Shown: positions 6,552-39,951 of the stretch, piece after piece
Numbering within the stretch: the stretch's first letter is position 1
Layout: each line of letters opens with the position of its first letter
From: Cognatundibacterium curvum
GTDB taxonomy: Bacteria > Pseudomonadota > Gammaproteobacteria > Burkholderiales > Burkholderiaceae_D
Reading direction: 5' to 3'
Assembly (NCBI RefSeq): GCF_014284235.1
Contig: NZ_JACOGD010000004.1
Span: 1 to 64,000 of the forward strand
Length of the DNA: 64,000 nucleotides
Notes under the pieces: generated by a model
The model's input: only the letters and a program-made list of their open reading frames with translations
Database searches by the model: none
Told to the model about the DNA's origin: nothing
Position numbers and translations under genes: made by a program

Positions 6552-7967
6552 TTACAGGGAATAGTACATATCGAACTCTACCGGATGGGTAGTCATGCGG
6601 AAGCGCTGAACTTCCTGCATTTTCAGATCGATGTAGGCATCGATCATGCTGTCGCTGAATACGCCACCACGTGTCAGGAATTCACGATCTTTGTTCAGTG
6701 CATCCAACGCTTCTTCCAAAGAAGAGCAAACTGTAGGTATCAGTGCATCTTCCTCAGGTGGCAGATGGTACAGATCTTTAGTCGCTGCTTCACCTGGGTG
6801 TATCTTGTTCTGAACACCATCCAGACCCGCCATCATCAGTGCGGAGAAGCACAGATATGGGTTCGCCAGTGGATCAGGGAAACGTGCTTCCACGCGACGG
6901 CCTTTTGGATTTGCCACGTAAGGAATACGGATAGAAGCAGAGCGGTTACGCGCAGAGTAAGCCAGTTTTACCGGAGCTTCAAAGCCTGGAACCAGACGTT
7001 TGTAGGAGTTAGTACCCGGATTGGTGATCGCGTTGAGCGCTTTTGCATGCTTGATGATACCGCCGATGTAGTACAGCGCAAAATCAGACAGGCCTGCATA
7101 ACCGTCGCCAGCAAACAGATTCTTGCCATCTTTCCAGATAGATTGATGTACGTGCATACCGGAACCGTTGTCACCAACGATAGGCTTAGGCATAAATGTC
7201 GCTGTTTTGCCGTAAGTGTGAGCCACGTTCCAGACGACGTATTTCAGATTTTGTGTCCAGTCAGCACGCTCCACCAGTGTAGAGAACTTGGTGCCGATCT
7301 CGTTCTGACCAGCGCCAGCCACTTCGTGGTGATGCACTTCTACAGGAATACCCAGAGATTCGAGGATCAGGCACATTTCAGAGCGCATATCCTGGAAGCT
7401 GTCGACCGGAGGAACCGGGAAATAGCCGCCTTTAACTGCAGGACGGTGGCCGGAGTTGCCGCCTTCGAGCTTGGCACCAGTTGACCAGGAAGCTTCTTCG
7501 GAATCAATCTTCACGAAGCAGCCGGACATATCAACGTTCCAGCGTACGCCATCAAAAATAAAGAATTCTGGCTCAGGACCAAAGTACGCTGTATCACCGA
7601 TGCCAGAAGATTTCAGATAAGCTTCTGCGCGCTTGGCGATAGAACGCGGATCGCGGTCATAACCCTTACCGTCGGAAGGCTCGATGACGTCACATTGCAT
7701 GAACAATGTGGTTTCTTCCATGAAAGGATCGATGTTTGCTGTGTTTGGATCAGGCATCAACAACATGTCAGAAGCTTCAATACCTTTCCAACCTGCGATG
7801 GATGAGCCGTCAAATGCGTGACCAGACTCGAACTTATCCATATCAAACTGGGAAACTGGAACAGTCACGTGCTGTTCTTTGCCTCGTGTGTCAGCAAAAC
7901 GGAAGTCAACGAACTTTACTTCGTTGTCTTTCGCCATTTTCAAGACTTCTGCTGCTGTCATTGCCAT
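6552..7967 (-). CDS. glnA: Glutamine synthetase, type I
   Basis: A 471-aa type I glutamine synthetase, which makes glutamine from glutamate, ammonia and ATP and forms a dodecamer in the cytosol. Conserved segments include [12 protein letters not shown], the metal/ATP region [31 protein letters not shown] and the adenylylation loop DLYHLPPEE with Tyr ~398, so the enzyme should be controlled by GlnE adenylylation. The ATG at 7967 has GAGGAG 7-8 nt upstream and gives the standard length; a longer reading frame to 8045 lacks family similarity. It is followed by a terminator, then the DUF4124 gene and ntrBC. Confidence 0.98.
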
Positions 7968-8027
7968 GTGAAACTCCTCAAATAGAGCAAAAAAAATTCG
8001 GAAATTGCCGAGTGTCCTGACTGTGCA

Positions 8028-8045
8028 CAGCAGAAAACCCGCCAA
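8028..8045 (-). promoter_or_regulatory. Candidate sigma-54 (-24/-12) promoter of glnA
   Basis: The minus strand reads TTGGCGGGTTTTCTGCT, with the GG of the -24 element (8042-8043) and the GC of the -12 element (8030-8031) exactly 10 nt apart, the spacing required for sigma-54. The -24 half is TTGGCGG rather than TTGGCAC. It would start transcription about 50 nt upstream of glnA. It was the only correctly spaced GG/GC pair found by eye in the region. Confidence 0.45.
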
Positions 8046-8252
8046 ACTATCTTCTTGACTTACGTATTCAAACTGCGACGCTTAAACTCATACGTCTTAT
8101 TAGCAGAATCTATGCCACCCCACTTAAAAACCCCGGCATCACGCAACAACTACCTAAACAACTGTTTTTAATGATTTTTTGCATAAGCATTCGTAGAAAA
8201 CCAATATAGCGCAAAATCAGCAGCGCACCAAAACACAGCAAAAAAAATATTT

Positions 8253-8269
8253 TGCACTAAATTAGCGCA
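8253..8269. promoter_or_regulatory. Candidate NtrC enhancer site upstream of glnA
   Basis: TGCACTAAATTAGCGCA is a 17-bp imperfect palindrome matching the NtrC consensus TGCACC-N5-GGTGCA in length and outer arms. It lies about 225 bp upstream of the candidate sigma-54 promoter, a normal enhancer distance, and ntrBC is next to glnA. Confidence 0.5.
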
Positions 8270-8527
8270 AAGAATAAGCGCGTCCAATTTGAAGCATCTT
8301 TGTGGTGCAACTTCTTGGCGCTCGATTATCTTTATTCAAAGTCGTGCTCAGAATAGTGCATGCAACGCGATTCTGCTTGATTTGCATCACACAGCAGTGA
8401 TCGACTTGCAAATAAGATTGAGTCTCATTTTCTCAAACGCGCTGCAAAAATTACATCGAACTTCATTTGTCGCATATACTTTCCTCAAAGAAATAATTTA
8501 CTTTCCTTAACAGAGCGTTTCAACACA

Positions 8528-11482
8528 ATGCCCATCTCCTCCCAAATCAAGCGAATCAACTCCAGAATCTGGGTGGTATTGGCATTCTGTGTGGCGATGA
8601 CATTCAGTACAACGATCATCGGCAAGCTCGATCAGGCTGCGCAAAGCGAGCAGCACAACCAGGCTTCAGAGCTCGCATTAATGCAAGCCCACTCATTGGA
8701 GCACAAACTCGCCCATGCGCTGTCTGCCAGCTATGCCGTCGGTGCTTTTATTCAGCAAAATCAAGGGAAAACGGAAGGCTTTACCCAATTTGCTGAACAG
8801 CTGCTGGAATACCATCCCAGCATTAATGCGATTTACCTGGCACCTGGCGGAATTACACAGTTTGTCGTACCAGTCAGCCTGAGTAGCGTGGGTTTAGGCA
8901 TAGACCTCATGCACGACACTACGCGTAAAACAGAGGCTATGCTGGCTGTCCAAAGTAAGCAACTGAGCCTGGCTGGCCCCTTAGAGCTAAAACGTGGCGG
9001 AGCTGGTGTCATCGGCAGATTGCCAGTTTACCTGGAGGATGCAAGCGGGAAGGAAACGCTTTGGGGTATCGTCTCTGTGGTTATATCTCTACCAAAAATT
9101 TTGAACGACGCAGAACTTCCGGAGCTGGCTAAACGCGGACATCAATATGAACTTTGGCGCATACATCCGGAGACAGGTAAAAAACAGATCATTGATCAAA
9201 GTGCACACTTTTCTGACTTGAATAGTGTGCGTCATAGCTTTAGCTTACCGAATACCACCTGGATCTTAGACGTCAACATAAGCAGCGTTACTGGGTTTGC
9301 CACTGCTCCTCCTTTAAAATTTGGAATAGCACTGCTACTCAGCGCAATGCTGGCTGTCATGACACATTTACTGCTATCAGCACGTGAACAAAAAAAAGGC
9401 TTGCGCAAACTGGTGAGTTTGCGCACAGGCGAGTTGGTGGCACGGGAAAAAGATTTACAACGTGCGCAATCCATATCGCAAACCGGTAGCTGGATTGCCG
9501 ACCTGAGCACCATGGAAATCCGTGGCACGGAGCAAGCCTTTCGCATTTGGGGACTAGGTCAGAGAACCACAATTTCCTGCGACTCTGTCCTGACACAGAT
9601 ACATCCCGACGACCGTGCTATCGCACTTGCCGGTTGGCAGCAAGCCAGACAAGGCCATGCCGCGTCCGTCGAATACAGATTACAGATAGGCGATCAACTC
9701 AAATGGGTGCATTCTCAGATTGAACACGATCACGATCCGGTCACGGCTGTAATGCGCTGCATAGGGACTGTTCAGGATATCACCGAGCGCAAAAAAATTG
9801 AAAATGACTTAAGGATCGCTGCGATCGCCTTTGAAGGACAGGAAGGCATCGTCATCACCGATCAGCACAGAAACATCTTGCGCATCAATCAAGCCTTCAC
9901 CCGGATTACTGGTTACGAACGGGACGAGGTACTGGGAAAAACCACCAGCTTATTGAAATCAGGCATACATGGCTCTGCTTACTATGCCGATATGGCGCAG
10001 CAATTAGAAACGCAGGGGTTGTGGCAAGGGGAAATATGGAACCGGCGCAAGAATGGTGAAATTTATCCGGAATGGCTGACGATCACCGCTATACGCGCCG
10101 CGGACGGTGCCATCGTCAATTATGTTGGCACCATGCTAGACATTACTCAAAGAAAAGCGACTGAAGCCAAACTGGAACATCTGGCCTACCACGATCCGCT
10201 GACAGGTCTCGCCAACCGTCGCCTGCTACTGGACAGACTTCAACATGCGCTAGTCAGCAATGCACGCAGCCATCGTTACGGCGCAATCCTGTTTTTAGAT
10301 CTGGATAATTTCAAAACGATTAATGATACTTCGGGCCATGGAAAAGGCGATTTACTGCTGCAGCAAATTGCGAAGCGACTGCAAGTCCGCACAGGAAAAG
10401 GCGATACCCTGGCCCGCATAGGCGGTGATGAATTCATCATCATTTTGGAAGACCTCAGTGAGAATCTGCGCGATACGGCAATTGAAGTCAGGTCATTTGC
10501 CTCTGCTATCCTGGAAGACATCAAACACCCTTTTGATCTCGATGGTCACCCCTTCCATACAACGGCGAGCATAGGTATAGACCTGTTTGGGACCAGCGAA
10601 ACCTGCGCTGAAAACATGCTGAAACAAGTGGAAGTTGCCATGTATGAAGCCAAAGCGGAAGGCGGCGATCATATCTGTTTCTTTAATCCGGATATGTTAG
10701 ACATCATTGCAGCCCGGGCCGCCATGGAAAACAATATACGTATCGGTATCAATGAGCGGCAATTTACCTTATTTTATCAACCACAAGTCAACAGCGCTGG
10801 AAAATGGATAGGTGCGGAAGCCTTGATACGGTGGCGCCATCCAGAAAAAGGCATGATTTCTCCGGCGGAGTTTATTCCGTTAGCAGAAGAATCAGGTTTA
10901 ATTATCCCACTCGGAAACTGGGTGATTCAAGAGGCTTGCTTACAATTGAAATCCTGGTCAGAGCACGCAGCCAGTGCGCATCTGACGCTGGCAGTTAACG
11001 TTAGCGCCAAGCAATTCAGACAGGCTGATTTTGTGGATCTTGTTCTGAGCGCGCTCGATTCCAGCGGTGCCGACCCAAGAAAACTCAAAATCGAACTCAC
11101 AGAGTCAGTGCTGGTCGATAATGTAGAAGAGATCATCGCAAAAATGCAACTATTGAAATCACATGGCGTTTGCTTTTCGCTGGATGACTTCGGCACTGGC
11201 TATTCCTCTCTGACCTACTTAAAGAAGTTACCTCTGGATCAGCTAAAAATAGACCAGTCTTTTGTGCGCGATATTCTGATCAATCCTAACGATGCTGCGA
11301 TCACCCGCACCATTATTGGGCTTGGAAAAAGTCTGGGGCTGGCTGTAATTGCCGAGGGTGTGGAAACCGAAGCGCAGCGTACATTTTTGCAAAGTCAGGA
11401 TTGTCATGCCTTCCAGGGATATTTATTCGGAAAGCCATCTGCTACACTCGATATTCCACACAAAACACCGCTTGCTGTCTGA
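8528..11482 (+). CDS. CHASE-PAS-PAS-GGDEF-EAL c-di-GMP protein
   Basis: A 984-aa inner-membrane signalling protein. Two membrane segments (~13-32 and ~263-285) flank a periplasmic CHASE-type sensor. Two PAS/PAC units follow (~310-420 and ~423-545), then GGDEF (~560-715) and EAL (~735-975). The diguanylate cyclase signature is intact (RIGGDEF, ~632-636), but the product-inhibition I-site lacks its Arg (GKGD in place of RxxD). The phosphodiesterase motifs are all present: EALIRW, ELTES, DDFGTGYSSL, KIDQSFV, AEGVET and FQGYLFG. Both c-di-GMP synthesis and breakdown are therefore possible. It is monocistronic and divergent from glnA. Confidence 0.93.
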   Translation: MPISSQIKRINSRIWVVLAFCVAMTFSTTIIGKLDQAAQSEQHNQASELALMQAHSLEHKLAHALSASYAVGAFIQQNQGKTEGFTQFAEQLLEYHPSINAIYLAPGGITQFVVPVSLSSVGLGIDLMHDTTRKTEAMLAVQSKQLSLAGPLELKRGGAGVIGRLPVYLEDASGKETLWGIVSVVISLPKILNDAELPELAKRGHQYELWRIHPETGKKQIIDQSAHFSDLNSVRHSFSLPNTTWILDVNISSVTGFATAPPLKFGIALLLSAMLAVMTHLLLSAREQKKGLRKLVSLRTGELVAREKDLQRAQSISQTGSWIADLSTMEIRGTEQAFRIWGLGQRTTISCDSVLTQIHPDDRAIALAGWQQARQGHAASVEYRLQIGDQLKWVHSQIEHDHDPVTAVMRCIGTVQDITERKKIENDLRIAAIAFEGQEGIVITDQHRNILRINQAFTRITGYERDEVLGKTTSLLKSGIHGSAYYADMAQQLETQGLWQGEIWNRRKNGEIYPEWLTITAIRAADGAIVNYVGTMLDITQRKATEAKLEHLAYHDPLTGLANRRLLLDRLQHALVSNARSHRYGAILFLDLDNFKTINDTSGHGKGDLLLQQIAKRLQVRTGKGDTLARIGGDEFIIILEDLSENLRDTAIEVRSFASAILEDIKHPFDLDGHPFHTTASIGIDLFGTSETCAENMLKQVEVAMYEAKAEGGDHICFFNPDMLDIIAARAAMENNIRIGINERQFTLFYQPQVNSAGKWIGAEALIRWRHPEKGMISPAEFIPLAEESGLIIPLGNWVIQEACLQLKSWSEHAASAHLTLAVNVSAKQFRQADFVDLVLSALDSSGADPRKLKIELTESVLVDNVEEIIAKMQLLKSHGVCFSLDDFGTGYSSLTYLKKLPLDQLKIDQSFVRDILINPNDAAITRTIIGLGKSLGLAVIAEGVETEAQRTFLQSQDCHAFQGYLFGKPSATLDIPHKTPLAV

Positions 11483-12277: not shown

Positions 12278-12320
12278 CGTTTCAGGACGTGCCAGATAAT
12301 GCATTGACATCCCACTTTTT

Positions 12321-12371
12321 TGCATCCATGCTTGCATCCATGGATAAACCCACCTAAAAGCCATGGATGCA
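12321..12371. repeat. TGCATCCATGG repeats, left integrase arm sites
   Basis: Three copies of a TGCATCCATG(G) core: direct at 12321 and 12333, inverted (CCATGGATGCA) at 12361. Two more copies lie near the right end at 21750 and 21762. Their symmetric placement inside both att cores suggests arm-type binding sites of the integrase. Confidence 0.6.
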
Positions 12372-12373
12372 AA

Positions 12374-13639
12374 ATGCCGAAACTCGCTACCCCGCTGACT
12401 GATATACAGGTTAAAAACAGCAAACCAAAAGAGAAGACATGGACGCTGGCTGATGGCAATGGCCTGTATCTGGAAATCAACCCAGCCGGAAAAAAAAGCT
12501 GGCGCATGGCTTACCGGCGACCAGTCACAAAGAAAAACAATCGCCTGAGCTTTGGCGACTACCCACTGATTGGTCTGGCCGAGGCAAGGGCTAAGTGTCT
12601 GGCCGCAGCCAAGCTACTCAAGGAAGGCATTGACCCTGCCGCCGAACGCGACGAAAAGAAGCAGCTTGCCGCTGAATCAGCCGCCCATACTTTTGAAAAA
12701 ATCGCCCGCGAATGGCATAACACCCGCTTGAGTGCGTGGAGTGCGGCCACCGCCAAAGACACCATTAACCGACTAGAAAAGGATATCTTTCCAGAAATAG
12801 GGAAACTCCCTATCAGCGAAATAACGCATAAGCAAATGATTGCGGCCTTGCGCAAGATTGAAGAGCGTGGCGCTGGTGAAGTCGCGCACCGCTTGAAGGC
12901 GACATGCGCCCGAGTCTTTAGCTATGCGAATCAGCATGGCATTGAGAACCGCAACCCTGCCGCCGACTTGAAAGACGTACTTAAACCAGTGAAGGCCGGA
13001 CACTTTGCCGCCATTTCACCAGACGAACTACCTGCTTTTCTGGAATCCATTAATAAAAACGATGCCAGACTATATGCGCCAACCCGTATTGCCCTGCGGC
13101 TGATGTTGCTGATTTTCGTTCGCAGCAGTGAGCTACGCACCACACCATGGAGCGAAATCAATTTAGAAACCGGTGAGTGGGTAATCCCATGGCAGCGCAT
13201 GAAACGCGGCAAGCTGACCATTAACCCAGATCAGACAGATCACCACGTTTGTCTGTCTCGCCAAGGACTGGAGCTACTGAAAGAACTGCACGGCTACACA
13301 GGCGGTAGCACTTACCTATTCCCGAACCAACGCGACCACAGCAAACCCATGTCCGGCGATGCTATCCGCATGGCCTTAAACCGCATGGGCTATGAAGGAA
13401 AAATGACGACGCACGGTTTCCGCGCCTTAGCGATGACCACACTCAAGGAAAAGCTAGGCTACCGACATGAAACAGTAGATCGCCAGCTTGCCCACGCTCA
13501 GAAAGACAAAATTGCCAGCGCCTATGATCGGGCTCAATTCTTGGATGAACGCAAAAAGATGATGCAGCACTGGGCGGATTACTTGGACGGCGTGAAGGCT
13601 TCCAGCAACGTCATTCACGCTACATTCAAACAGGCCTGA
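12374..13639 (+). CDS. Tyrosine-type site-specific integrase (P4/DUF4102 type)
   Basis: A 421-aa integrase. The N-terminal DUF4102-like arm-binding domain reads TPLTDIQVKNSKPKEKTW and DGNGLYLEI, the SAM-like core-binding domain spans ~100-190, and the catalytic domain spans ~205-400. Catalytic residues are visible: Arg in LIFVRSSELR, His-x-x-Arg in THGFRALAMT, a His in QLAHAQKD, and the nucleophilic Tyr in ASAYDRAQFLDERKKMMQHW. The ATG at 12374 was preferred over 12320, because the extra codons run through the integrase arm repeats. It sits beside the tRNA-Ser attL and catalyses integration and excision of the element. Confidence 0.95.
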   Translation: MPKLATPLTDIQVKNSKPKEKTWTLADGNGLYLEINPAGKKSWRMAYRRPVTKKNNRLSFGDYPLIGLAEARAKCLAAAKLLKEGIDPAAERDEKKQLAAESAAHTFEKIAREWHNTRLSAWSAATAKDTINRLEKDIFPEIGKLPISEITHKQMIAALRKIEERGAGEVAHRLKATCARVFSYANQHGIENRNPAADLKDVLKPVKAGHFAAISPDELPAFLESINKNDARLYAPTRIALRLMLLIFVRSSELRTTPWSEINLETGEWVIPWQRMKRGKLTINPDQTDHHVCLSRQGLELLKELHGYTGGSTYLFPNQRDHSKPMSGDAIRMALNRMGYEGKMTTHGFRALAMTTLKEKLGYRHETVDRQLAHAQKDKIASAYDRAQFLDERKKMMQHWADYLDGVKASSNVIHATFKQA

Positions 13640-17709: not shown

Positions 17710-17862
17710 ATGACCCCAAAACAGTTAAAGAGTCGCATTGATTCGTCAATGCGCTGGGTGTGCATACGCGTGTACATTTTTCATCTCAACGTGTGTTCCC
17801 GTCTGATGATGAAAACAAAGGAGCAAAGGATAAGGAATGGCGATGAGCAGAAAACCAATTGA
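17710..17862 (+). CDS. Possible 50-aa small protein
   Basis: A short frame beginning MTPKQLKSRIDSSMRW, with AAGGCAG upstream, overlapping the start of the primase gene by 20 nt. Nothing but position and a plausible ribosome site supports it; it could be non-coding leader. Confidence 0.25.
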   Translation: MTPKQLKSRIDSSMRWVCIRVYIFHLNVCSRLMMKTKEQRIRNGDEQKTN

Positions 17863-20788
17863 GCGACCTACACCAGAAGCCATACAAGCGGCACTAAGCT
17901 TTATTCCGCCCGATGACCGGCAGTTATGGTTAAAGATCGGTATGGGCATTAAGCAGGAGTTAGGTGACGCGGGTTTTGACCTGTTTGACTCTTGGAGTCA
18001 GAGCGGCAGCAACTATGATGCGGAGGCCGCAAAAACAAGCTGGCGCAGTTTTAAAGCGGGCGGCAAGATCGGCATCGGCACATTGCTGTATGAAGCAAAA
18101 CAACGCGGGTTTAATATCAAAGACCATGCACCCGCAGCGCCACTGAGTGCAGAACAGGCGGCCAGCATGGCGCAGGAAAGAGCCGCCAAGTTATCCGAAG
18201 AACAGGCAGAGACAGAACGCAAACAGGCAGCCGCTGCCAGCATGGCACAAAAGCAGTGGAACAGCGCCAGCGAACAAGGTCATTCAGACTATCTGCAAAA
18301 AAAAGGGATTGCTGGGCATGGTGTACGGTTTGCCCGTCATAGCAAAGGCGATACGTTGCTGATTCCTGTCATCGATACCAGCGGCCAGCTTTGCAATATT
18401 CAGCGTGTTTTTGCCAATGGCGATAAACGTTTTTATACCGGTGGCAAAGTGTCGGGCGGCTTTCATTTAATCGGTGATGCTGGCGCTGCTATCTGGCTAT
18501 TAATTGCAGAGGGATACGCTACCGGCGCGGCCTTATTTGAAGCGACTGGCTACCCTGTGGCGATTGCCTTCAGCGCCAGCAATCTGAAGCATATCGCAGC
18601 CCTGATGCAGCAGCGGTATCCAGATAAGCGCCTGTTGCTGTGCGCTGATGACGATAGCGAGACAGAACAGAACACCGGAAAAAATACAGGTGTGATCGCA
18701 GCCAAAGAAGCTGCCACCGCAACTGGCGGCACGTGGTGTAAGCCGCTGAATTTACCTGAAGGTGGTAATGATTTTAATGATCTTGCGGTGGCGCGTGGAC
18801 TGGCCGAAGTCAAAAGCCAGATCGAGGCCACAATCAACGGAACAGCGCCAGCCAGTGCAGTGCCAATAAACGGGCAGGAAGTGAGCCAGATCACGGCACA
18901 GGCGCATGACGTTGACGCGGCAAAGTCCGATAAGGTCAGCGTACAAAAAACGCCCCAAAAGCCCGCCAATGCACCGCGCCAGAATCGAGGCAGCAAACCT
19001 GTTGGCGCTGGCCAATCGAGTAAGCCGTTTTTTACTGTGAGTGATGAAGGTGTGTTTTATCACGCCTTCCATGAAGGCGAAGCCTTACCCGCTCTTAAAA
19101 TCTGTTCGCCCTTGTATGTGATCGCCAGAACGCGGGATGCGGCCAGCAGTGAATGGGGTTATCTCTTGGAATTAAACGACCCTGACGACAATATCAAACG
19201 CTGGCCGATGTCGTCCCGCATGTTGTCTGGTGATGGCACGCAATATCGAGCTGATTTGCTTTCGCTGGGCTTGATGATTGAACCTGGCCTGAAGGTTAAA
19301 AACTTGCTGACCACCTACATACAAACGGCTGACGTGCCTGACCGTGTGCGGTGTGTTGAACGTACAGGCTGGCATGATGATGTGTATGTGCTGCCAGATC
19401 GCAGTATAGGACAAGGAGCAGAAACAGTGCTGTTTCAGGCGAATGGCAGTACTACGTCACAGTTTAAACAAAAGGGAACGCTGGCAGAGTGGCAAACCCA
19501 TATATCTGCCTATTGTCGGGGTAATTCGCGGCTATTGTTTTTTGTATCGACGGGTTTTGCGTCGGTATTACTCAATCACGCGAAAGTGCAGAGCTTTGGC
19601 TTGCATCTGATGGGCAGTAGTTCCACCGGTAAAAGTACAGCCATGAAAGTGGCGGCCTCGGTGTTTGGTGGCGCTGATTATGCGCAAAGCTGGCACGTGA
19701 CCGACAATTCGTTAGAAGCGACCGCGCAAAAGCATTCCGACGCCTTACTGGTATTGGATGAACTTGGGCAGGCCGACCCTAAGATGGTGGGCAATATCGC
19801 CTATATGCTCAGTAATGAAAAAGGCAAAGGCCGCGCTACACAGAACGCGACAGCAAAGAAGATCGCCACATGGCGGCTGATATTTATCAGTGATGGGGAA
19901 TTGTCTTTAGAGGCCAAAATGGCCGAAGCAGGCAAAGCGACCAAAGGCGGCCAAGATGTGCGCATGGCACACATTCATGCTGATGCTGGCAAAGGCTTGG
20001 GCGTTTTTGATACTGTGCACAGCTTTGCTGATGGTGCGGCTATGTCCCGTCACTTGGTCAGTATGGCACAGCAATATCACGGCGCGGCTGGCCTGACGTT
20101 TATCGAATGGCTGGTCAGCAATGTAGGGCTATTACCAGATATGCTGCGACAGGCAATAGGCAGCACGGCGGGCAAACTCTGTCCAGCCAATGCGCACGGC
20201 CAAGTAAAGCGCGTGTCTGAGTTCTTCTCGTTGGTGGCTGCTGGTGGTGAGTTAGCGACCGCAGCAGGCGTGACAGGTTGGGCAGATGGTGAAGCCACCG
20301 AAGCGGCCACAACCTGCTTTAACGACTGGTTATCAAGTCGTGGCACAGCGGGGGATATTGAGCAAGATCGTATGCTGGCGCTGTTGCCCGACTTCATTCA
20401 AGTTAATGGAGATTCTCGCTTTGCATGGGCGCACAGAGCGATGGATGACCACGCACCTAAAACTATTAACCAAGCCGGTTTTAAACGCATAGTAAGCAAG
20501 GCAGGAAACCCTATCAGGAATAATACGGACTGGCACAAGGAATACGGCGACAAGATACATCCTGATGAAGCCGAAGGCGCAAGCATTGACTATTTCCTGC
20601 TACCCAAAGTATTTAAAGAGGAAGTATGTAAAGGTTTTGATGCCAGACTGGTAGCGGCCAAGATGTCAGAGCTAGGCGTATTTGAAAAAGACAAGGAGGG
20701 TAAGTGCAGCATCCTTGAACGATTCGCCGGAATCAAAGCCAGATACTACAAAATACCAAGCGATAAACTGTACTCACTCATTGCCTGA
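17843..20788 (+). CDS. P4-alpha-like primase/helicase (PriCT-2, TOPRIM, DUF927)
   Basis: A 981-aa replication protein. A PriCT-2-type domain lies at ~8-75 (PDDRQLWLKIGMGIKQEL). A TOPRIM region is at ~219-270 with LLIAEGYATG and the acidic LLCADDDSE, typical of primases. A DUF927 helicase-like domain follows from ~390, with Walker A GSSSTGKST (~590) and Walker B LLVLDELGQ (~634). It probably primes and unwinds DNA at the element's origin, like P4 alpha. The ATG at 17843 has AAGGA 6 nt upstream; an ATG at 17837 abuts that site. It is flanked at a distance by the two iteron clusters. Confidence 0.9.
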   Translation: MSRKPIERPTPEAIQAALSFIPPDDRQLWLKIGMGIKQELGDAGFDLFDSWSQSGSNYDAEAAKTSWRSFKAGGKIGIGTLLYEAKQRGFNIKDHAPAAPLSAEQAASMAQERAAKLSEEQAETERKQAAAASMAQKQWNSASEQGHSDYLQKKGIAGHGVRFARHSKGDTLLIPVIDTSGQLCNIQRVFANGDKRFYTGGKVSGGFHLIGDAGAAIWLLIAEGYATGAALFEATGYPVAIAFSASNLKHIAALMQQRYPDKRLLLCADDDSETEQNTGKNTGVIAAKEAATATGGTWCKPLNLPEGGNDFNDLAVARGLAEVKSQIEATINGTAPASAVPINGQEVSQITAQAHDVDAAKSDKVSVQKTPQKPANAPRQNRGSKPVGAGQSSKPFFTVSDEGVFYHAFHEGEALPALKICSPLYVIARTRDAASSEWGYLLELNDPDDNIKRWPMSSRMLSGDGTQYRADLLSLGLMIEPGLKVKNLLTTYIQTADVPDRVRCVERTGWHDDVYVLPDRSIGQGAETVLFQANGSTTSQFKQKGTLAEWQTHISAYCRGNSRLLFFVSTGFASVLLNHAKVQSFGLHLMGSSSTGKSTAMKVAASVFGGADYAQSWHVTDNSLEATAQKHSDALLVLDELGQADPKMVGNIAYMLSNEKGKGRATQNATAKKIATWRLIFISDGELSLEAKMAEAGKATKGGQDVRMAHIHADAGKGLGVFDTVHSFADGAAMSRHLVSMAQQYHGAAGLTFIEWLVSNVGLLPDMLRQAIGSTAGKLCPANAHGQVKRVSEFFSLVAAGGELATAAGVTGWADGEATEAATTCFNDWLSSRGTAGDIEQDRMLALLPDFIQVNGDSRFAWAHRAMDDHAPKTINQAGFKRIVSKAGNPIRNNTDWHKEYGDKIHPDEAEGASIDYFLLPKVFKEEVCKGFDARLVAAKMSELGVFEKDKEGKCSILERFAGIKARYYKIPSDKLYSLIA

Positions 20789-33059: not shown

Positions 33060-33662
33060 TCAGGTTTTGCGCCCGGCAAAAGCATGCAGCATCTCCAGCA
33101 CATGGGATGCTGGCGGCATTTCTGCCGTTTTGTAGACTAGCTGCGCCTGGCGGTCGAACAAAAAAATATTTCCTGAATGCCGCTCATTCCCCACTATCGG
33201 CCCTTTTAATAAAGCCAGTATCGCTGACAAGTCCTGTTCACGCGGTGCCAATACCTGCCACAAAGGATGGGCAGCAAATTGCTCACGCCATTGCCGCATC
33301 GCCGCTGCCGTATCCGTCAAAGGGTCTATGCTCAGGGAAATCAGCTGCAGGTCTTTATCCTGACTGGATATCTTCGCTGCAACCGCAGCAAACAAAGCAC
33401 CCTGCAGCGGACAAATCGCACTACACCCGGTGAACATGAGCTGCACAGCCGTGACTTTCCCTGCTAACAGCCGCTGCAAAGCGATGCGCTGGTTTGCGCT
33501 ATTCAATACGCTGATCTCATGTAAACGACGTGGCGGCCGGATAAAGCCAAATGGATCATGCGCAGGCGGTGCAGCCTGCACCCAGGCGGGCAGACACAGT
33601 GCTGCGGCCTGCAACACAAACTGACGCCGTCCGGTCAGCGCGTCTGATTCAGGAATTGCCAT
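33060..33662 (-). CDS. SCO1/SenC-type copper protein
   Basis: A 200-aa thioredoxin-fold protein with the copper-binding CxxxC of SCO proteins (FTGCSAICP, C80 and C84) and the matching distal His (NERHSGN, H162). A GRRQF segment before the hydrophobic stretch suggests Tat-type export. Its N-terminus overlaps the preceding cytochrome gene. SCO proteins deliver copper to cytochrome oxidase; here the neighbour is a copper radical oxidase, so a role in loading that enzyme is likely. The ATG at 33662 is preferred to a GTG at 33674. Confidence 0.88.
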   Translation of the reverse strand: MAIPESDALTGRRQFVLQAAALCLPAWVQAAPPAHDPFGFIRPPRRLHEISVLNSANQRIALQRLLAGKVTAVQLMFTGCSAICPLQGALFAAVAAKISSQDKDLQLISLSIDPLTDTAAAMRQWREQFAAHPLWQVLAPREQDLSAILALLKGPIVGNERHSGNIFLFDRQAQLVYKTAEMPPASHVLEMLHAFAGRKT

Positions 33663-34114
33663 AGCGCTGAACACTGTTCATCATTGATTTGAAAAACCGG
33701 CATATTCCTGGAAATCAGTATATGCGCGGGATCGATACCGGTTCTGAGTACCCGACAAAAACTACCCAACTCATAGCTGGAGGCCGGGCCGCCACGGCGT
33801 GACTGCCTGTTACGCAGCACGCCTGCTTCTAAGGCCGGAGCAAAATTCTGCGCCAGCTTGTCAGTGGTCGCATTGGCTTTGCCGGACGCCTGGCTGGAAG
33901 CATTGCTGTGGCAATTCACGCAGCGGCTGGCCATGGATGGCAATGCGATATCCTGCCCTCTGAGTTGTGCACTAACTGGAAGCTGACCCGTATACAGTTT
34001 TCTACCCAAGTCAGTCGCACTCTGGTTCGCATCGCTGCCCGTTGCCACTAACAGCAGCGGTGCGCACAGCGCAGCCAACAGCCGTCGTTTGAGCGGTGTG
34101 AAGCGCTGGCTCAT
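33635..34114 (-). CDS. Small c-type cytochrome
   Basis: A 159-aa exported protein with one heme c motif, CVNCH (65-69), after a basic N-terminus and hydrophobic signal. It starts within the stop of the copper oxidase gene (ATGA) and overlaps the SCO gene at its end, so the three are co-translated. It may shuttle electrons to or from the diheme module of the large protein. Confidence 0.88.
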   Translation of the reverse strand: MSQRFTPLKRRLLAALCAPLLLVATGSDANQSATDLGRKLYTGQLPVSAQLRGQDIALPSMASRCVNCHSNASSQASGKANATTDKLAQNFAPALEAGVLRNRQSRRGGPASSYELGSFCRVLRTGIDPAHILISRNMPVFQINDEQCSALWQFLNQTR

Positions 34115-37100
34115 CGTGCGCTAATCCAATCTAGCAAGCGACTCCATTGCTGCTGCACATTGGACCATGCCTGACTCGCCAATTGCTGCAACTGTGCCAC
34201 AGGGCTATCCGCCAGCATTGCTGTCTTCGCCTGCACACCTGCCGCTGGATTGCTGACATTCGCAAACAGCACGGATTTCTCAGCCGCGTTATCTGCATTA
34301 ATTTGCCGGAAATCGCCCTCCCAGACCGGGTCACCCCAATTCACGCCGTCGCTGCTGACATAGAAATTGACCAGACTCATGGTGCCATTACCACCACCCA
34401 CACGTGGCAGGTAACGGAAGCCAGCAAGCTCTTGCGCTCCGCCCAGATCGACCTGGAACCAATGTGGCGGGCGTGGATTGGCCGTTTGCCACTGGGTATG
34501 CCAGATCGTATCTTTGTTTCCGTCAATCGCATTCGCAGCAGCACCGTTCTCGCCTTGCAGTTCTGCGCTGTCTGCGCTGGCTTTCCAATTGCTACGCGCC
34601 AGCAAAGCCCCCTGCTCATTGACCAGATTAAATTCCGCCATCGAACCCCAGGCATTGTTATTCACCTCGCCCAGTTGCTCCAGCTTCACATAACGGACCG
34701 CGCCACCTGTCAGTTCTGCATTGCCGATCTGATTGACAAAAGCTGCTAACTGATTGAGCTCAGCATCCGTAAAGGAGCGCATTTTTTGCGCACCGGCACC
34801 CAGTAATGGGGGATTGGCCGCATTGATGGTCGCCGGATTATGCGCTGCAATCGCCTGCTGTACCGTCGCAGCAGAGCCATCATGCAAATAAGGCGCAGTG
34901 GCCCAGACATCGCGTAAAGTCGGCACATCCAGACCCGTCAAAGGCGTGCCCTGACGCTGGCCGCTGCTGGCTTTGAGGGTGCCGATGTTATACAACTTAC
35001 CCAAGGCCGTACCACTGACCGTAAAGTTCACCCCAGTGTGACAAGATGCGCAGTAAGTATTAAACAGACCGCGTCCCGCCTTGCCATCCACTGTCAGCGA
35101 GTTATCCGGATTCCGATAAGGGCTGGCATCAACCTGGCGCAAGGATGCCATGTAAGCCGCCAATGCATCCAGATCAGCGCTGAGGCCCGCCTTTTTATCG
35201 CCTAAGGGCTGATTGCGGGTGCCGGCATTGTAATCCGCATCCTTCATCAATCCTGTGCCTTGGGCAAAGCTGCGGATCTGGGATTCAAAATCCTGTAGCT
35301 CGTCAAAATTTCCTGACCAATGCAGATTCATCTGGCCACCGGCGCGGCCACGCAGGCTGATGGTATTGCGTAAGCCCTCGCCTAAACCGGTAAAGTCCCA
35401 GGTACGGCCATCGGTTCCAGCCTCGCTGTGGCAAGCGGTACAGCTGAGCCAGCCGCCACGCGCCAGACGTGGATCACGCGCATCATAGAAATGCTGTTTC
35501 CCGATTAAAACCTGTGCACTGAGTTTCTCAGCCGCGATGGTGGATGCCACTTGTACTGCACCCACCTGCATTTGCCCACGCTGCAGCATAGCTGTCAGAT
35601 CGAAACGACTGACCGTGCGGTCCATAAAATTATTAACGAACAGCACATTGCCATCGCTGGAAAAACTCAGTCCCTGTGGTGCGCGCCCTGCATCAAAGCG
35701 GAACATTTCGCGTGCACCAACCGGATCAAGCACCGCGATCTGCCTGGTGTTTTCCAATGCGAGGAACAGATACGCACCACCCGGATGAAACGCTGCCGCA
35801 CTGACCAGACCGGTGCTATTGATATCAACTCGGGCAGCGTAATCCTCTTTCATGCTGTTGAGATTAATGCGCGAGCTGATCGCTCTGACCGTGTTCTGAA
35901 AGTCGAGATTTTTTCCATCGCGCAGACTACCGCGCAGTATATTGTCCTGTTTGGATGGTATCCAGGCTGAAACGCCATCCGGTGCAATCGCAGCGGCGGC
36001 CAGATAATTGGGTATGCCGCGTCCCTGAGTTTGTGCATCCTGTTTATCACTATGCTGCAGGATCACTGAGCTTTGCAGGCGCAGAGGATGCGTATTTGCT
36101 ACCACCACAATACCGCCATAATTGACGCCATTGACCGTCGTTTGCACCTTGGCTGTACCTTCACCAGGCAAAGCTGGCGTAATAAAGCGTGATACCAGCA
36201 GACGATCACTGTCCTGATGCAAACTCAGATAACGCGGCGTGGCACCGACACTGAGACTCGCCATCTGCTTGCCAGTCGCGCTGTCGATTTGCCACACCTG
36301 GCCCAGCGCTTCCAGCGCGACATACAGGCGCGCTTCATTAGCCGCCGCGACGATGCCGAACGGCTGGCTACCCACAGGCAAGGCCACGGTATTGCTGACT
36401 TTCAGTGTCGTGCTATCGATCACACTCAGACTGGCCGCATCGCGATTGCTGACCCACACTTTGCCATCTGTCGTCAGCGCCAATTGGCGCGGCCCTTTAC
36501 CTACCGCAATCTCAGCCAGTTTCTGCAGATTTTGCGCATCCATCACCGTTACGCTGTCATTGTCCGGATTCACCACCCAAATACGGTCACCGCCAGTGCG
36601 TTTTTCCGTCAACAGCGCGGTCGATGCGCGCGCCTGCCCCGCAATCGCAGGGGTCGTCACCGCCTGATAAAAACTATAGGTGGAGATAATGCCGGACAGG
36701 TTTTTTACTGTCGCAGTAACACGGTACAGCCCGGGCTGAGTGTATTGATGCGTCGTCGTCGCGCTGGCACTGAACGTGTTGGAATTAGCGCTGCCATCGC
36801 CAAAGTCCCAGGCAAAAGTCAGACCACTGCCGGTTGCATTCACCTGATAACTGACCGTCGATCCGTTGATTTGCGCTTGTACATTGACCGGTGAAATCAC
36901 CGCCGCAGGCAGCGTCACATTCATCACGAAGCTTTGGGATGCGACGCCACCACGACCATCGCTGACACTGGCACTGACCATGAAACTGCCGTCGCGGGTC
37001 GTGGTGCCGCTGATCAGACCGGTCGCGGCATTCAGGGTCAAACCGGGCGGCAAACCAGATGCAGTAAAACTCAGGGTATCGCCATCAGGATCATTCGCCT

Positions 37101-39951
37101 GCAAGTTGAGATTCACGGTCTGCCCGAGCTGCACACCGGTGAAGGTCGGCATATTCAAGGTCGGCGCACGGTTTGCGGGACGACCATACACCTGCACTTC
37201 TGCGAGCTGCAGGAAGTTTGTGCCAGCCAGTTGTACTTTGACGTAACGGCCACTGGCTTTCAGGTCCAGTAACAGATTGGATGGAGCGACTCCGGCGTAA
37301 TAGGACTTAGTAACAGCGGTATCAGCCAGCAAACTGTTCAGGCTGCGGCCACTCATGTCCTGCGCCGACGCCAATACATAGAAATTGCCCAGACGTTCGG
37401 CACAGCAATCGCTGCGATTCCAGATGCGCACCCGGCTCAATTCTTGCACACTGCCGAGATCGACCTGCCACCAGTCATTGGCGGCTGTTCCTGCGGTATG
37501 GGTAACACTGCCATTGGCGAGATTGCCATCACTGATGCCATCGACTGCGCGTGCGCTGTCAAAATTCTGATACATGGATGACTGTGAAGTCGCTTTTCCA
37601 CGCGCCAGATTGTTCAGATATATCGTTTTCTCTGCCGCGTTGTTCTGGAAATCAGCCAGATTTCCTTCCGCGACAGGATTGCCCCAGTTCACGCCATCGG
37701 CACTGGTGTAAAAATAAAATCTGGCGATGGTACCGTTACCGCCGCCTGGCCTTGGTAAATAGCGGAAAGCGCTCAGCTGCATCGCTTTGCCCAGGTCGAC
37801 CACAAAGGAATGTGGTGCAGCTGTGGCGTTGGCAGTCCAGGCAGTATGCCAAATCGTATTCGGATCACCGTCTATGGCATTGGCCGGGCCATGATTACCA
37901 GCCTGCGCTTCAGCACTGTCTGCACTGACCTTCCAACCCGCGCGTGGCAGCAAATTGCCATCCTGATCCAACAAATTGAATTCCGCCATCGAGGCCCAGG
38001 GATTACCGCCTACCTCAGACATCTGGACCAGCTTCACAAAACGGGTGCTGCCCGCAGCAGCGACATTCCACACAAAATCGCTGCTGACATACGCGCCGCT
38101 ACTCTGCGCAAACACAGTGACAGAATAGCTGCCTGCCTGTGTCACCACACCGGAAATCACACCGCTTTGCGCATTGATGCTCAGACCTGGCGGTAATCCG
38201 CTGGCACGAAAACTCACCGCACCGGGTGCAGCTACGGTCGCCGTAATATTTAAGGAAACATTGCTACCAGTATTAGAAAACTGGTCGTCAGGCGCCTGCA
38301 GTTTAGGCGCATTGTTGCCGTGAATATTAATCGTCTTCGCAATTGAAGGCACACCTTTGGCATCCAAACCGAACAGCATGTAATTACCAGGCAATAAGAT
38401 CCCTGGATTGCCCGGTATATTCAGCGTGTATTGCCCTGCCGCGCTGCGCGTAAAGCTGAGTGCGATACGGCGCTGATCGTTGTTGACCGTATGGGTCGTG
38501 GCCGACAGGCGTATTAAGGCAAACGCAGCGATACCGTCAGTCGCGCTGACATTGATATTACTGCCGTAACCAGCCGTTGCCGGTACCGTCGTCAAGACCG
38601 GACGATTGGCCGCTGTACCATCTGCGTTCAACAAATAAGATGGCGTATAGACTTGTATATCCTGATGGTTCGCCGCACAGCCATTGCCACACAGGCCGCC
38701 ACCTGCGGACAATACGCGTCCGTCATGCATCAGCAAGGCGACGGAGTGATACACACGCGGTACCGACATGGCAGGCAAAGTCGTGAAAGTTTCTGTCACC
38801 GGGTCCCATAATTCGGGCGCCAATACTGCGGTGTTATCGGAGAACGGTACGGGACGGGTCTGTCCACCTATCACCATCACCTTGCCATCCGGCAGAACTA
38901 CCAGATTGGAATAAGCGCGCGCGTAACTCATGGAAGCGAGTTTGCGTACTGACAGGCTGCCATTGGTGTTGATCAGGTAAACGGAATTGCTCGCATCGGC
39001 GTCCTGATAATCTTTAGCACCACCAACTTTGAGTATCTTTCCGGCGTCGTACATGACGGTGTTTCCATTCATGGAATCAGCGTCGTCTGCACGTTGTCCA
39101 GCCGGTGACACCGAGCCATTGCCGCGCGTATCTATCCAGTTCATATTGCGACTTGGCCCCGCGTGCAAGACTTTGCCATTGCCGGTTGGGATCAGCCACA
39201 TATGATTATCACCACGGTACACACCACCGGCGTCATTGGTCAGCATATTGGCGACCGAGACTCCACTCAGGCGCCGCCAGCCATTGGCGTTATCCCAGAT
39301 TTCGCCATGCTTGTTGCCGGCACCGCCAGACCAGGAACCACCCAGTGTGAACACCGAGCCATCTGCCAAGGTGGTCGAGGCGTTGTAACCACGGGTGATG
39401 TTCATGTTGGCCGCTGAACTCCAGCTTGCATTGGCCGGGTTGTAGATACTGGTTTTGCCGCTATCGATGCCGCCATTCACCAGCAAGCGGCCGTCACTGA
39501 GCAAGGCCGTACCCGGACAAAACATGTCATGCCCGGTAGCGCTGATCAGCGTTTCTGTCGCTTTATTGGTGAGGGGATCAAAATTCGAGAAATAAGTCTG
39601 CCCGCCTGCGCCAAACGAGAAGCGGTCATTAGCAGACCAGAACAAGACATGTCCATCCGGCAAATTGGAGGCCGCTGCAGGCACCAGCGACAGCGGGATA
39701 GGTGCCGACCATGAAGAAGGCGCTGCAGGCGCAGCACGCAAACTATCGAAAGCCAGGCTCAGATTGCTGCCACTTTGCTCAGCAGAAGCTTGAGGCGCAG
39801 ACTGATTTCCGCCACAAGCCGCCAGCGACAACATCAAGATACTGCTCAATACGGGCAAAACTGTAACTCGCGTTACATATGTTACAGTTTTCACATTTGG
39901 CGCAGCCAACACAGCCCGTACAGCTTGCATTTCTGAAAATTGATAGCGCAT
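34111..39951 (-). CDS. Copper radical oxidase (galactose oxidase-like) fused to diheme cytochrome c module
   Basis: A 1,946-aa exported lipoprotein (lipobox LSLAACGG, Cys46). Residues ~75-545 are a galactose-oxidase Kelch domain plus DUF1929. Its active-site residues all align with GalOx: C145 (HDMFCPG, =Cys228), Y189 (RGYNAS, =Tyr272), W207 (GGSWSGG, =Trp290), Y401-H402 (VYHS, =Tyr495-His496) and H487 (THTVNNDQRR, =His581); spacings 44, 18 and 85 are identical. Then come an Ig-like unit, two discoidin (F5/8C) domains, a second Ig-like unit, a PKD domain, a YVTN beta-propeller, a diheme peroxidase-like module with CTACH (1504-1508) and CASCH (1634-1638), and a third discoidin domain. It should oxidise an alcohol or aldehyde on the cell surface; substrate unknown. 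AGG 7 nt upstream supports the start. Confidence 0.92.
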   Translation of the reverse strand: MRYQFSEMQAVRAVLAAPNVKTVTYVTRVTVLPVLSSILMLSLAACGGNQSAPQASAEQSGSNLSLAFDSLRAAPAAPSSWSAPIPLSLVPAAASNLPDGHVLFWSANDRFSFGAGGQTYFSNFDPLTNKATETLISATGHDMFCPGTALLSDGRLLVNGGIDSGKTSIYNPANASWSSAANMNITRGYNASTTLADGSVFTLGGSWSGGAGNKHGEIWDNANGWRRLSGVSVANMLTNDAGGVYRGDNHMWLIPTGNGKVLHAGPSRNMNWIDTRGNGSVSPAGQRADDADSMNGNTVMYDAGKILKVGGAKDYQDADASNSVYLINTNGSLSVRKLASMSYARAYSNLVVLPDGKVMVIGGQTRPVPFSDNTAVLAPELWDPVTETFTTLPAMSVPRVYHSVALLMHDGRVLSAGGGLCGNGCAANHQDIQVYTPSYLLNADGTAANRPVLTTVPATAGYGSNINVSATDGIAAFALIRLSATTHTVNNDQRRIALSFTRSAAGQYTLNIPGNPGILLPGNYMLFGLDAKGVPSIAKTINIHGNNAPKLQAPDDQFSNTGSNVSLNITATVAAPGAVSFRASGLPPGLSINAQSGVISGVVTQAGSYSVTVFAQSSGAYVSSDFVWNVAAAGSTRFVKLVQMSEVGGNPWASMAEFNLLDQDGNLLPRAGWKVSADSAEAQAGNHGPANAIDGDPNTIWHTAWTANATAAPHSFVVDLGKAMQLSAFRYLPRPGGGNGTIARFYFYTSADGVNWGNPVAEGNLADFQNNAAEKTIYLNNLARGKATSQSSMYQNFDSARAVDGISDGNLANGSVTHTAGTAANDWWQVDLGSVQELSRVRIWNRSDCCAERLGNFYVLASAQDMSGRSLNSLLADTAVTKSYYAGVAPSNLLLDLKASGRYVKVQLAGTNFLQLAEVQVYGRPANRAPTLNMPTFTGVQLGQTVNLNLQANDPDGDTLSFTASGLPPGLTLNAATGLISGTTTRDGSFMVSASVSDGRGGVASQSFVMNVTLPAAVISPVNVQAQINGSTVSYQVNATGSGLTFAWDFGDGSANSNTFSASATTTHQYTQPGLYRVTATVKNLSGIISTYSFYQAVTTPAIAGQARASTALLTEKRTGGDRIWVVNPDNDSVTVMDAQNLQKLAEIAVGKGPRQLALTTDGKVWVSNRDAASLSVIDSTTLKVSNTVALPVGSQPFGIVAAANEARLYVALEALGQVWQIDSATGKQMASLSVGATPRYLSLHQDSDRLLVSRFITPALPGEGTAKVQTTVNGVNYGGIVVVANTHPLRLQSSVILQHSDKQDAQTQGRGIPNYLAAAAIAPDGVSAWIPSKQDNILRGSLRDGKNLDFQNTVRAISSRINLNSMKEDYAARVDINSTGLVSAAAFHPGGAYLFLALENTRQIAVLDPVGAREMFRFDAGRAPQGLSFSSDGNVLFVNNFMDRTVSRFDLTAMLQRGQMQVGAVQVASTIAAEKLSAQVLIGKQHFYDARDPRLARGGWLSCTACHSEAGTDGRTWDFTGLGEGLRNTISLRGRAGGQMNLHWSGNFDELQDFESQIRSFAQGTGLMKDADYNAGTRNQPLGDKKAGLSADLDALAAYMASLRQVDASPYRNPDNSLTVDGKAGRGLFNTYCASCHTGVNFTVSGTALGKLYNIGTLKASSGQRQGTPLTGLDVPTLRDVWATAPYLHDGSAATVQQAIAAHNPATINAANPPLLGAGAQKMRSFTDAELNQLAAFVNQIGNAELTGGAVRYVKLEQLGEVNNNAWGSMAEFNLVNEQGALLARSNWKASADSAELQGENGAAANAIDGNKDTIWHTQWQTANPRPPHWFQVDLGGAQELAGFRYLPRVGGGNGTMSLVNFYVSSDGVNWGDPVWEGDFRQINADNAAEKSVLFANVSNPAAGVQAKTAMLADSPVAQLQQLASQAWSNVQQQWSRLLDWISAR

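Follow-up and report, generated by a model that had tools for sequence, protein, structure and literature searches.

We analysed a stretch of 64,000 nucleotides of Cognatundibacterium curvum (contig NZ_JACOGD010000004.1, positions 1 to 64,000, the whole of which is called the window below) and found within 33060-39951 three overlapping minus-strand genes, encoding an oxidase fusion, a small cytochrome c and a SCO-family copper protein. Alignments and profile searches support the view that the first of these is a galactose-oxidase-type copper radical oxidase joined to a diheme module of the superfamily of cytochrome c peroxidase (CCP) and MauG, with SCO and cytochrome c genes next to it. The function that we favour for this cassette, with rather less than even confidence, is that of a copper radical oxidase that has one-electron partners, both fused and separate; these would make or keep its tyrosyl radical, while SCO would load its copper. 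Such coupling of oxidase, hemes and SCO suggests that some bacteria may wire a copper radical enzyme to dedicated electron carriers. An earlier note on this DNA had placed the three genes in this range and had the last two overlap the fusion gene, and all three were found where it placed them. The features are as follows, domain residues being numbered in the fusion.

34111-39951, minus strand: oxidase-diheme fusion, 1,946 amino acids, lipoprotein-like (from the sequence)
39814..39951, minus strand: N-terminal signal and lipobox LAAC|GGN (C46), read by eye from the sequence
38317..39750, minus strand: galactose-oxidase catalytic domain, residues 68-545, kelch propeller and GO-like E-set (Pfam, PDB match, residue mapping)
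38056..38310, minus strand: He_PIG Ig-like domain 1, about 548-632 (Pfam, boundary approximate)
37612..38049, minus strand: discoidin (F5/8C) domain 1, about 635-780 (Pfam and PDB match)
37186..37611, minus strand: discoidin (F5/8C) domain 2, about 781-922 (Pfam and PDB match)
36913..37164, minus strand: He_PIG Ig-like domain 2, residues 930-1013 (Pfam)
36682..36903, minus strand: PKD domain, about 1017-1090 (Pfam)
35572..36594, minus strand: YVTN beta-propeller, about 1120-1460 (Pfam, TIGR02276, AlphaFold model)
34702..35529, minus strand: diheme c domain of the CCP/MauG superfamily, about 1475-1750 (Pfam, alignments; weak model)
35428..35442, minus strand: heme 1 motif CTACH, residues 1504-1508 (C, C and H in 43 of 43 modules)
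35038..35052, minus strand: heme 2 motif CASCH, residues 1634-1638 (C, C and H in 43 of 43)
34840..34842, minus strand: H1704, candidate sixth ligand of heme 2 (alignment; Met in CCP, Tyr in MbnH)
34235..34656, minus strand: discoidin (F5/8C) domain 3, about 1766-1905 (Pfam and PDB match)
33635-34114, minus strand: small monoheme cytochrome c, 159 amino acids, with CVNCH, RRGGP, M138-P139 and C120/C148 (4-nucleotide overlap with the fusion)
33060-33674, minus strand: SCO-family copper protein, 204 amino acids, with C84, C88, H166, an Arg-Arg N-terminus and a GTG start (40-nucleotide overlap with the cytochrome c gene)

In the PDB, the N-terminal domain matched galactose oxidases best (E 4.5e-173). 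In the alignment C145, Y189, W207, Y401, H402 and H487 correspond to C228, Y272, W290, Y495, H496 and H581 of the Fusarium galactose oxidase, which bears out the earlier claim that all active-site residues of that enzyme are kept. The predicted cofactor comprises the C145-Y189 pair, the copper ligands Y189, Y401, H402 and H487, and the stacking W207; the domain therefore has the Cys-Tyr pair, the Tyr and two His copper ligands and the stacking Trp of family AA5, together with its kelch propeller and GO-like E-set (PF09118, 77.9 bits for a cut-off of 25). It fell far short of the GlxA equivalog NF052501 (143.6 bits, cut-off 800). Among 84 aligned oxidase domains, Y189, Y401 and H402 were invariant, C145 and H487 differed only by gaps (1 and 2, respectively), and the W207 position was Trp in 80. 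Residues F194, R330, Y405, Q406 and F464 of the Fusarium enzyme, which with F441 we take to form the galactose substrate pocket, are identical in the window domain, F441 being replaced by Tyr. At the W207 position, Phe was observed in the Variovorax oxidases L080, L067 and L063, and Val in a second fusion of the host genome described below; a tuning of substrate or redox properties is a possible meaning of these replacements.

Downstream of the catalytic domain, some 1,400 residues follow. Pfam families found on the fusion were the GO-like E-set, kelch, two He_PIG, three F5/8C, PKD, propeller families, CCP_MauG and Cytochrom_C. The PKD domain and YVTN propeller described in the earlier note were recovered above curated cut-offs (53.1 against 23.5 bits for PKD, 73.5 against 27.85 for TIGR02276); the two discoidin pairs were not, as three discoidin stretches and two He_PIG Ig domains were found instead. 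Structure prediction, proposed in the same note, succeeded for the propeller, with an AlphaFold confidence (predicted local distance difference test, pLDDT) mostly above 83 and hydrazine synthase beta and an archaeal YVTN protein as the first two PDB folds, and failed to give a good model of the diheme part (pLDDT 62). That part scored 28.7 bits with the CCP_MauG profile (cut-off 25.6) and contains two CXXCH motifs (positions 1504 and 1634), as in bacterial diheme CCP; its sequence places it in the CCP/MauG superfamily, to which a Foldseek comparison of the model also assigned it, weakly (template modelling score 0.3-0.4). Both motifs, H1544, W1545 and H1690 were invariant in 43 of 43 modules.

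Of the two partners, the small cytochrome c has the CXXCH motif and Met ligand of class I cytochromes c, even though its Pfam Cytochrom_C score of 17.3 bits lies below the cut-off of 21.3, and its heme is expected to be His/Met-ligated. The CXXCH, M138-P139 and the Cys pair were invariant in 26 of 26 aligned rows, as was RRGGP except for one near-invariant Gly. The SCO protein has the CxxxCP and distal His of SCO1/SenC (47.5 bits, cut-off 22.8), with C84, C88, P89 and H166 kept in 60 of 60 sequences and an N-terminal Arg-Arg in 59 of them. In 55 of 65 cases a hydrophobic stretch follows the Arg-Arg as in signals for twin-arginine translocation (Tat), by a loose pattern applied to open frames; this is suggestive only, since the pattern also matches upstream sequence. 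A Tat-exported SCO would be unusual. The host genome encodes ResB for cytochrome c maturation.

The distribution of the cassette was examined by searching GTDB genomes with the oxidase domain as query, which gave at least 80 loci; all long frames at the loci were scored, and the counts below concern the 80 loci listed. The cytochrome c and SCO genes adjoin the oxidase in 59 loci, 36 of which have the diheme fusion and 23 not; 4 loci are fused without the pair (one of them, L008, ends at a contig end) and 17 have neither, making 40 diheme fusions in all. At the thresholds used the pair was all-or-none, as not one of the 80 loci had just one of the two genes. The 23 unfused loci with the pair include 14 from Variovorax, the others including Acetobacteraceae and metagenome-assembled genomes (MAGs) of Bryobacterales. 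As for the 17 loci with neither, L039 and L081 end inside the oxidase and L062 has 165 bp downstream. Gene order was oxidase-cytochrome-SCO in 54 loci, cytochrome-SCO-oxidase in 4 and divergent in 1, the remaining 21 having the oxidase only. The host is a close relative of Undibacterium: the two nearest loci, from U. crateris and U. rugosum, have the same trio with 98% identity in the oxidase domain. In L013, a complete oxidase-diheme fusion is immediately preceded by a propeller-diheme frame that is cut by the contig start (3-1964, plus strand), so that two fusions may lie in tandem.

In broader samples the cassette proved rare. Of 250 genomes from the window's order 12 had PF09118, as did 10 of 398 from the phylum; these are 21 different genomes, a few of the stretches being short contigs; the trio was present in 2 of the 21 (the window's own genome and G016, whose locus is identical to L082 of the GTDB scan) and the diheme fusion in 3 (these two and G318). 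Strong matches to the cytochrome c profile occurred in 2 of the 250 order genomes, both adjoining a fused oxidase, with weak matches, in larger frames, in 8 more; in another sample the profile gave a strong match in 1 of 229 genomes, the window's own. Among 72,556 plasmids the cytochrome c family was present on 6, all of which belong to the set of 11 that gave an oxidase match, and it adjoined the oxidase on 5 of the 6, C. oxalaticus having two places of each; the other five oxidase plasmids (three from Streptomyces, one each from Sinorhizobium and Nostoc) gave no cytochrome c match. On a named plasmid the cassette is annotated as 'discoidin domain-containing protein', 'hypothetical protein' and 'SCO family protein'.

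The same genome encodes a second fusion of 1,955 amino acids, here PAR (L005, 8662-14529, minus strand; G000:C55), made of oxidase, PKD, YVTN, diheme and PA14 domains. Its oxidase domain is 33% identical to that of the window and matches Glyoxal_oxid_N (43.4 bits, cut-off 37.5), and its propeller-diheme module is 51% identical. In a quick tree of 120 oxidase rows, the fusions whose oxidase is of the window's type formed a 46-row group together with two contig-truncated rows (Shimodaira-Hasegawa-like approximate likelihood-ratio test, SH-aLRT, 94); fusions outside it are PAR, L170, L149 and, identified later, L180-L182. A single origin of the fusion was rejected, since keeping 18 fused rows together on a 50-row subset gave p-AU 2.7e-93 in the approximately unbiased (AU) test, and so was the grouping of PAR with 12 window-type rows (p-AU 1.4e-4); the tested groups were picked after the 120-row tree, in which PAR and L149 are long branches, and both trees were quick searches. 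In a quick tree of the modules, that of PAR was sister to Undibacterium modules (SH-aLRT 91). The simplest account would be a transfer of the module from oxidases of one clade to those of another, and this repeated coupling argues for a functional tie.

Separate diheme genes were also observed beside fused or unfused oxidases: CCP_MauG genes in L149 (12976-14460, plus strand) and L172 (8824-10554, minus strand), and a profile match in L182 (11758-13029, minus strand). Exclusive association of the module with copper radical oxidases was suggested by a class sample, where 5 of 5 matches (E <= 1e-40) were oxidase fusions, two of them from the window's own genome. This was ruled out by the order sample, in which 3 of 7 full-length matches were on a copper oxidase and 4 were not. 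The latter come from two genera: stand-alone proteins in one (L190, L193) and an LVIVD/PKD protein in the other (L191, 5306-9622, minus strand; L192, 6287-10273, plus strand). The gene for the LVIVD/PKD-module protein is followed directly by a GSDH-NPCBM gene of the glucose/sorbosone-dehydrogenase type, and a GMC oxidoreductase gene is divergent upstream. These neighbours, seen in one genus only, would suit a module that transfers electrons for oxidoreductases of sugars or alcohols.

The operon product would be a galactose-6-oxidase-type copper radical oxidase with fused hemes and a dedicated cytochrome c. Copper would be delivered by SCO, and the C145-Y189 thioether would then form with O2, by family analogy with galactose oxidase. 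The inactive Cu(II)-Tyr state would be converted to the active Cu(II)-Tyr radical, and kept so, by loss of one electron to the c-hemes and the His/Met cytochrome c, a one-electron role that is the job of added or tandem peroxidases for the fungal enzymes. The active enzyme would oxidise a primary alcohol, probably C6 of galactosides held by the discoidin domains. In this scheme we infer the loading with copper and heme, the direction of electron flow, the substrate and the location of the fusion. Concerning location, for which the cell surface proposed in the earlier note is one possibility, Gly at +2 of the lipobox fits outer-membrane sorting under the E. coli rule, and a cytochrome c partner, if periplasmic, would argue for the periplasmic side.

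One-electron partners are favoured because of two published parallels. In Streptomyces lividans (GlxA-Sco-DtpA, PMC4736821), a copper radical oxidase is likewise accompanied by SCO and a heme protein, and both Sco and the heme peroxidase DtpA are required for GlxA maturation; there, however, the partner is a separate DyP peroxidase, whereas here it consists of fused c-type heme motifs and a cytochrome c. A Streptomyces-like DyP partner was not found in the window's own genome (PF04261 in 0 of 1, positive in 3 of 14 controls). In Colletotrichum (PMC9770985) a dedicated heme partner also accompanies a copper radical oxidase, AlcOx, which the tandem peroxidase activates by one-electron oxidation despite a low peroxidase activity; unlike the partners in the window, it is a fungal class II peroxidase encoded by a separate, head-to-head gene. 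The catalytic domain, cofactor and most pocket residues resemble those of Fusarium galactose 6-oxidase (AA5_2; PDB 1gof/1t2x) and of PDB 9g43/9g8h, and the N-terminal discoidin domain of Fusarium-type galactose oxidase matches discoidin domain 3; heme motifs, the long C-terminal part and adjoining SCO and cytochrome c genes set the window chain apart from galactose oxidase. The YVTN-like propeller and CCP-like diheme domain recall hydrazine synthase beta and gamma (PDB 5c2v), which unlike the fusion lack an oxidase domain, are separate subunits (although a fusion model exists in NCBIfam) and show low identity.

Several observations weigh against this favoured function. Given that 21 of the 80 loci lack the pair and 40 the diheme module (some truncated by contig ends), and that the trio was found in 2 of 21 PF09118 genomes, neither partner is required by all such oxidases. 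PAR has an SCO gene of another type (7853-8593, minus strand, following it) and no such cytochrome c, the cytochrome c profile having matched only once in the host genome. The propeller-diheme module also occurs without a copper oxidase. A bis-His heme, usually of low potential, would be a poor oxidant of tyrosine, so that the cytochrome c or heme 1 would be needed for that step. Finally, the all-or-none pairing fits a copper-maturation pair equally well.

This last possibility is tentative; the cytochrome c would set the redox state either of the SCO copper or, while the Tyr-Cys crosslink forms, of the cofactor, as has been proposed for DtpA with Sco and GlxA, perhaps with some help from the fused diheme, and the strictness of the pairing makes it a close rival of a one-electron partnership. 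In its favour, the two genes stay together in the 5 loci where they precede the oxidase or lie on the opposite strand, SCO has an Arg-Arg N-terminus and the Streptomyces peroxidase is a Tat substrate (PMC4736821), and GlxA maturation has the double requirement mentioned above. The DtpA step is itself put forward as a hypothesis in that paper. Against it, separation of the two genes also occurs, SCO and cytochrome c flanking the oxidase on opposite sides in plasmid loci L167 and L168, and another SCO-like frame stands alone in 4 of the 17 loci with neither gene, thus in 4 of the 21 pairless loci, as SCO does without such a cytochrome beside PAR.

We consider it unlikely that the cassette is a self-contained oxidase/peroxidase, as the earlier note had proposed, in which H2O2 from the oxidase would be removed by the fused diheme fed by the small cytochrome c. 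The oxidase and diheme are indeed fused, and separate CCP_MauG-type genes adjoin oxidases in L149 and L172; specific support for H2O2 removal was not found. The small cytochrome c could donate electrons as for bacterial CCP. The note's description of the module as peroxidase-like holds for its superfamily and not for its ligands. Bacterial CCP, MauG and MbnH share with it two c-heme motifs; H1704, however, aligns with the Met of CCP 1iqc and the Tyr of MbnH 6e1c, and 38 of 43 modules have His at this place, the other 5 (Rhizobacter type) having Ala with a His a few residues later. The C-terminal heme of the window module therefore has neither the Met of CCP nor the Tyr of MauG and MbnH at its sixth-ligand position (we take Tyr294 to be the counterpart in MauG, where one structure title names Y294H). 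Hydrazine synthase gamma also has a His after the stretch aligned to H1704. In the 1iqc alignment, which is remote, the distal Glu falls on Q1564, a position occupied by Q, G, L, R or A in the 43 modules, and the distal Gln on F1555, Phe in 43 of 43; the alignment to 3o5c places the Glu in a gap. The distal Gln and Glu and the sixth-ligand Met have established roles in CCP, and the pattern of ligand and distal residues lowers the likelihood of a peroxidase activity, even if a pocket could be built differently, the alignment being remote. Moreover, the cytochrome c is retained in 23 loci whose oxidase carries no fused diheme. A MauG-like maturase is disfavoured by the His at the ligand position, and scores lie far below the MauG/MbnH equivalog cut-offs (TIGR03791, 33.2 against 443.85; TIGR04039, 49.5 against 362.85). 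Streptomyces provides a precedent for peroxide use, as DtpA uses GlxA-made H2O2, yet it did not boost GlxA activity over horseradish peroxidase (PMC4736821).

A further, doubtful idea is that the bacterial galactose-oxidase-type enzymes of the cassette are copper-radical dehydrogenases, in which single electrons from the sugar alcohol would leave the Cu-Tyr site for the fused hemes, pass to the cytochrome c and enter respiration, and little H2O2, if any, would be made. If true, this would be a new mode of working for the galactose-oxidase class, in which we know only of oxidases. That the diheme and propeller are an inert, structural accessory acquired like the discoidin domains is very improbable, the module being found alone or on another propeller protein in L190 to L193 but having invariant heme motifs, H1544, W1545 and H1690, and being repeatedly coupled to separate oxidase clades.

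The links of SCO to GlxA and of a peroxidase to an oxidase are already published, and the SCO-oxidase link is not new, because PMC4736821 credits Banci 2007 with having suggested, on the basis of gene context, a role of Sco for such enzymes in other species. No published report of a copper radical oxidase-diheme fusion, or of this cytochrome c, was found among the papers listed by a literature search made mostly without subscription papers. In the accessible part of a review of enzymes with built-in cytochromes (PMC6472588), galactose oxidase appears a single time, as an electrode enzyme, and the term 'copper radical' does not occur. The in vivo activation and copper supply of copper radical oxidases are still being worked out, the cases known to us involving a separate fungal peroxidase (PMC9770985) or a DyP peroxidase with Sco in Streptomyces (PMC4736821). 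The genetic link of cytochrome c and SCO to the oxidase extends over several lineages of proteobacteria and to MAGs of Bryobacterales, with the diheme on the same chain in a large subset. The question of the redox partner becomes testable with one polypeptide and one small operon. The oxidase-diheme fusions are also natural candidates for self-activating or electrode-wired galactose oxidases.

Neighbouring genes in the window (mechanosensitive channel, usher, integrase, EAL/GGDEF, TonB receptor, cobQ-type and Sel1 proteins, among others) were uninformative on the substrate, and a phage origin found no match in 50,697 phage records. An integrase (12320-13639, plus strand) and a PriCT-2/DUF927 primase-like gene (17837-20788, plus strand) perhaps belong to an integrated element unrelated to the oxidase cassette.

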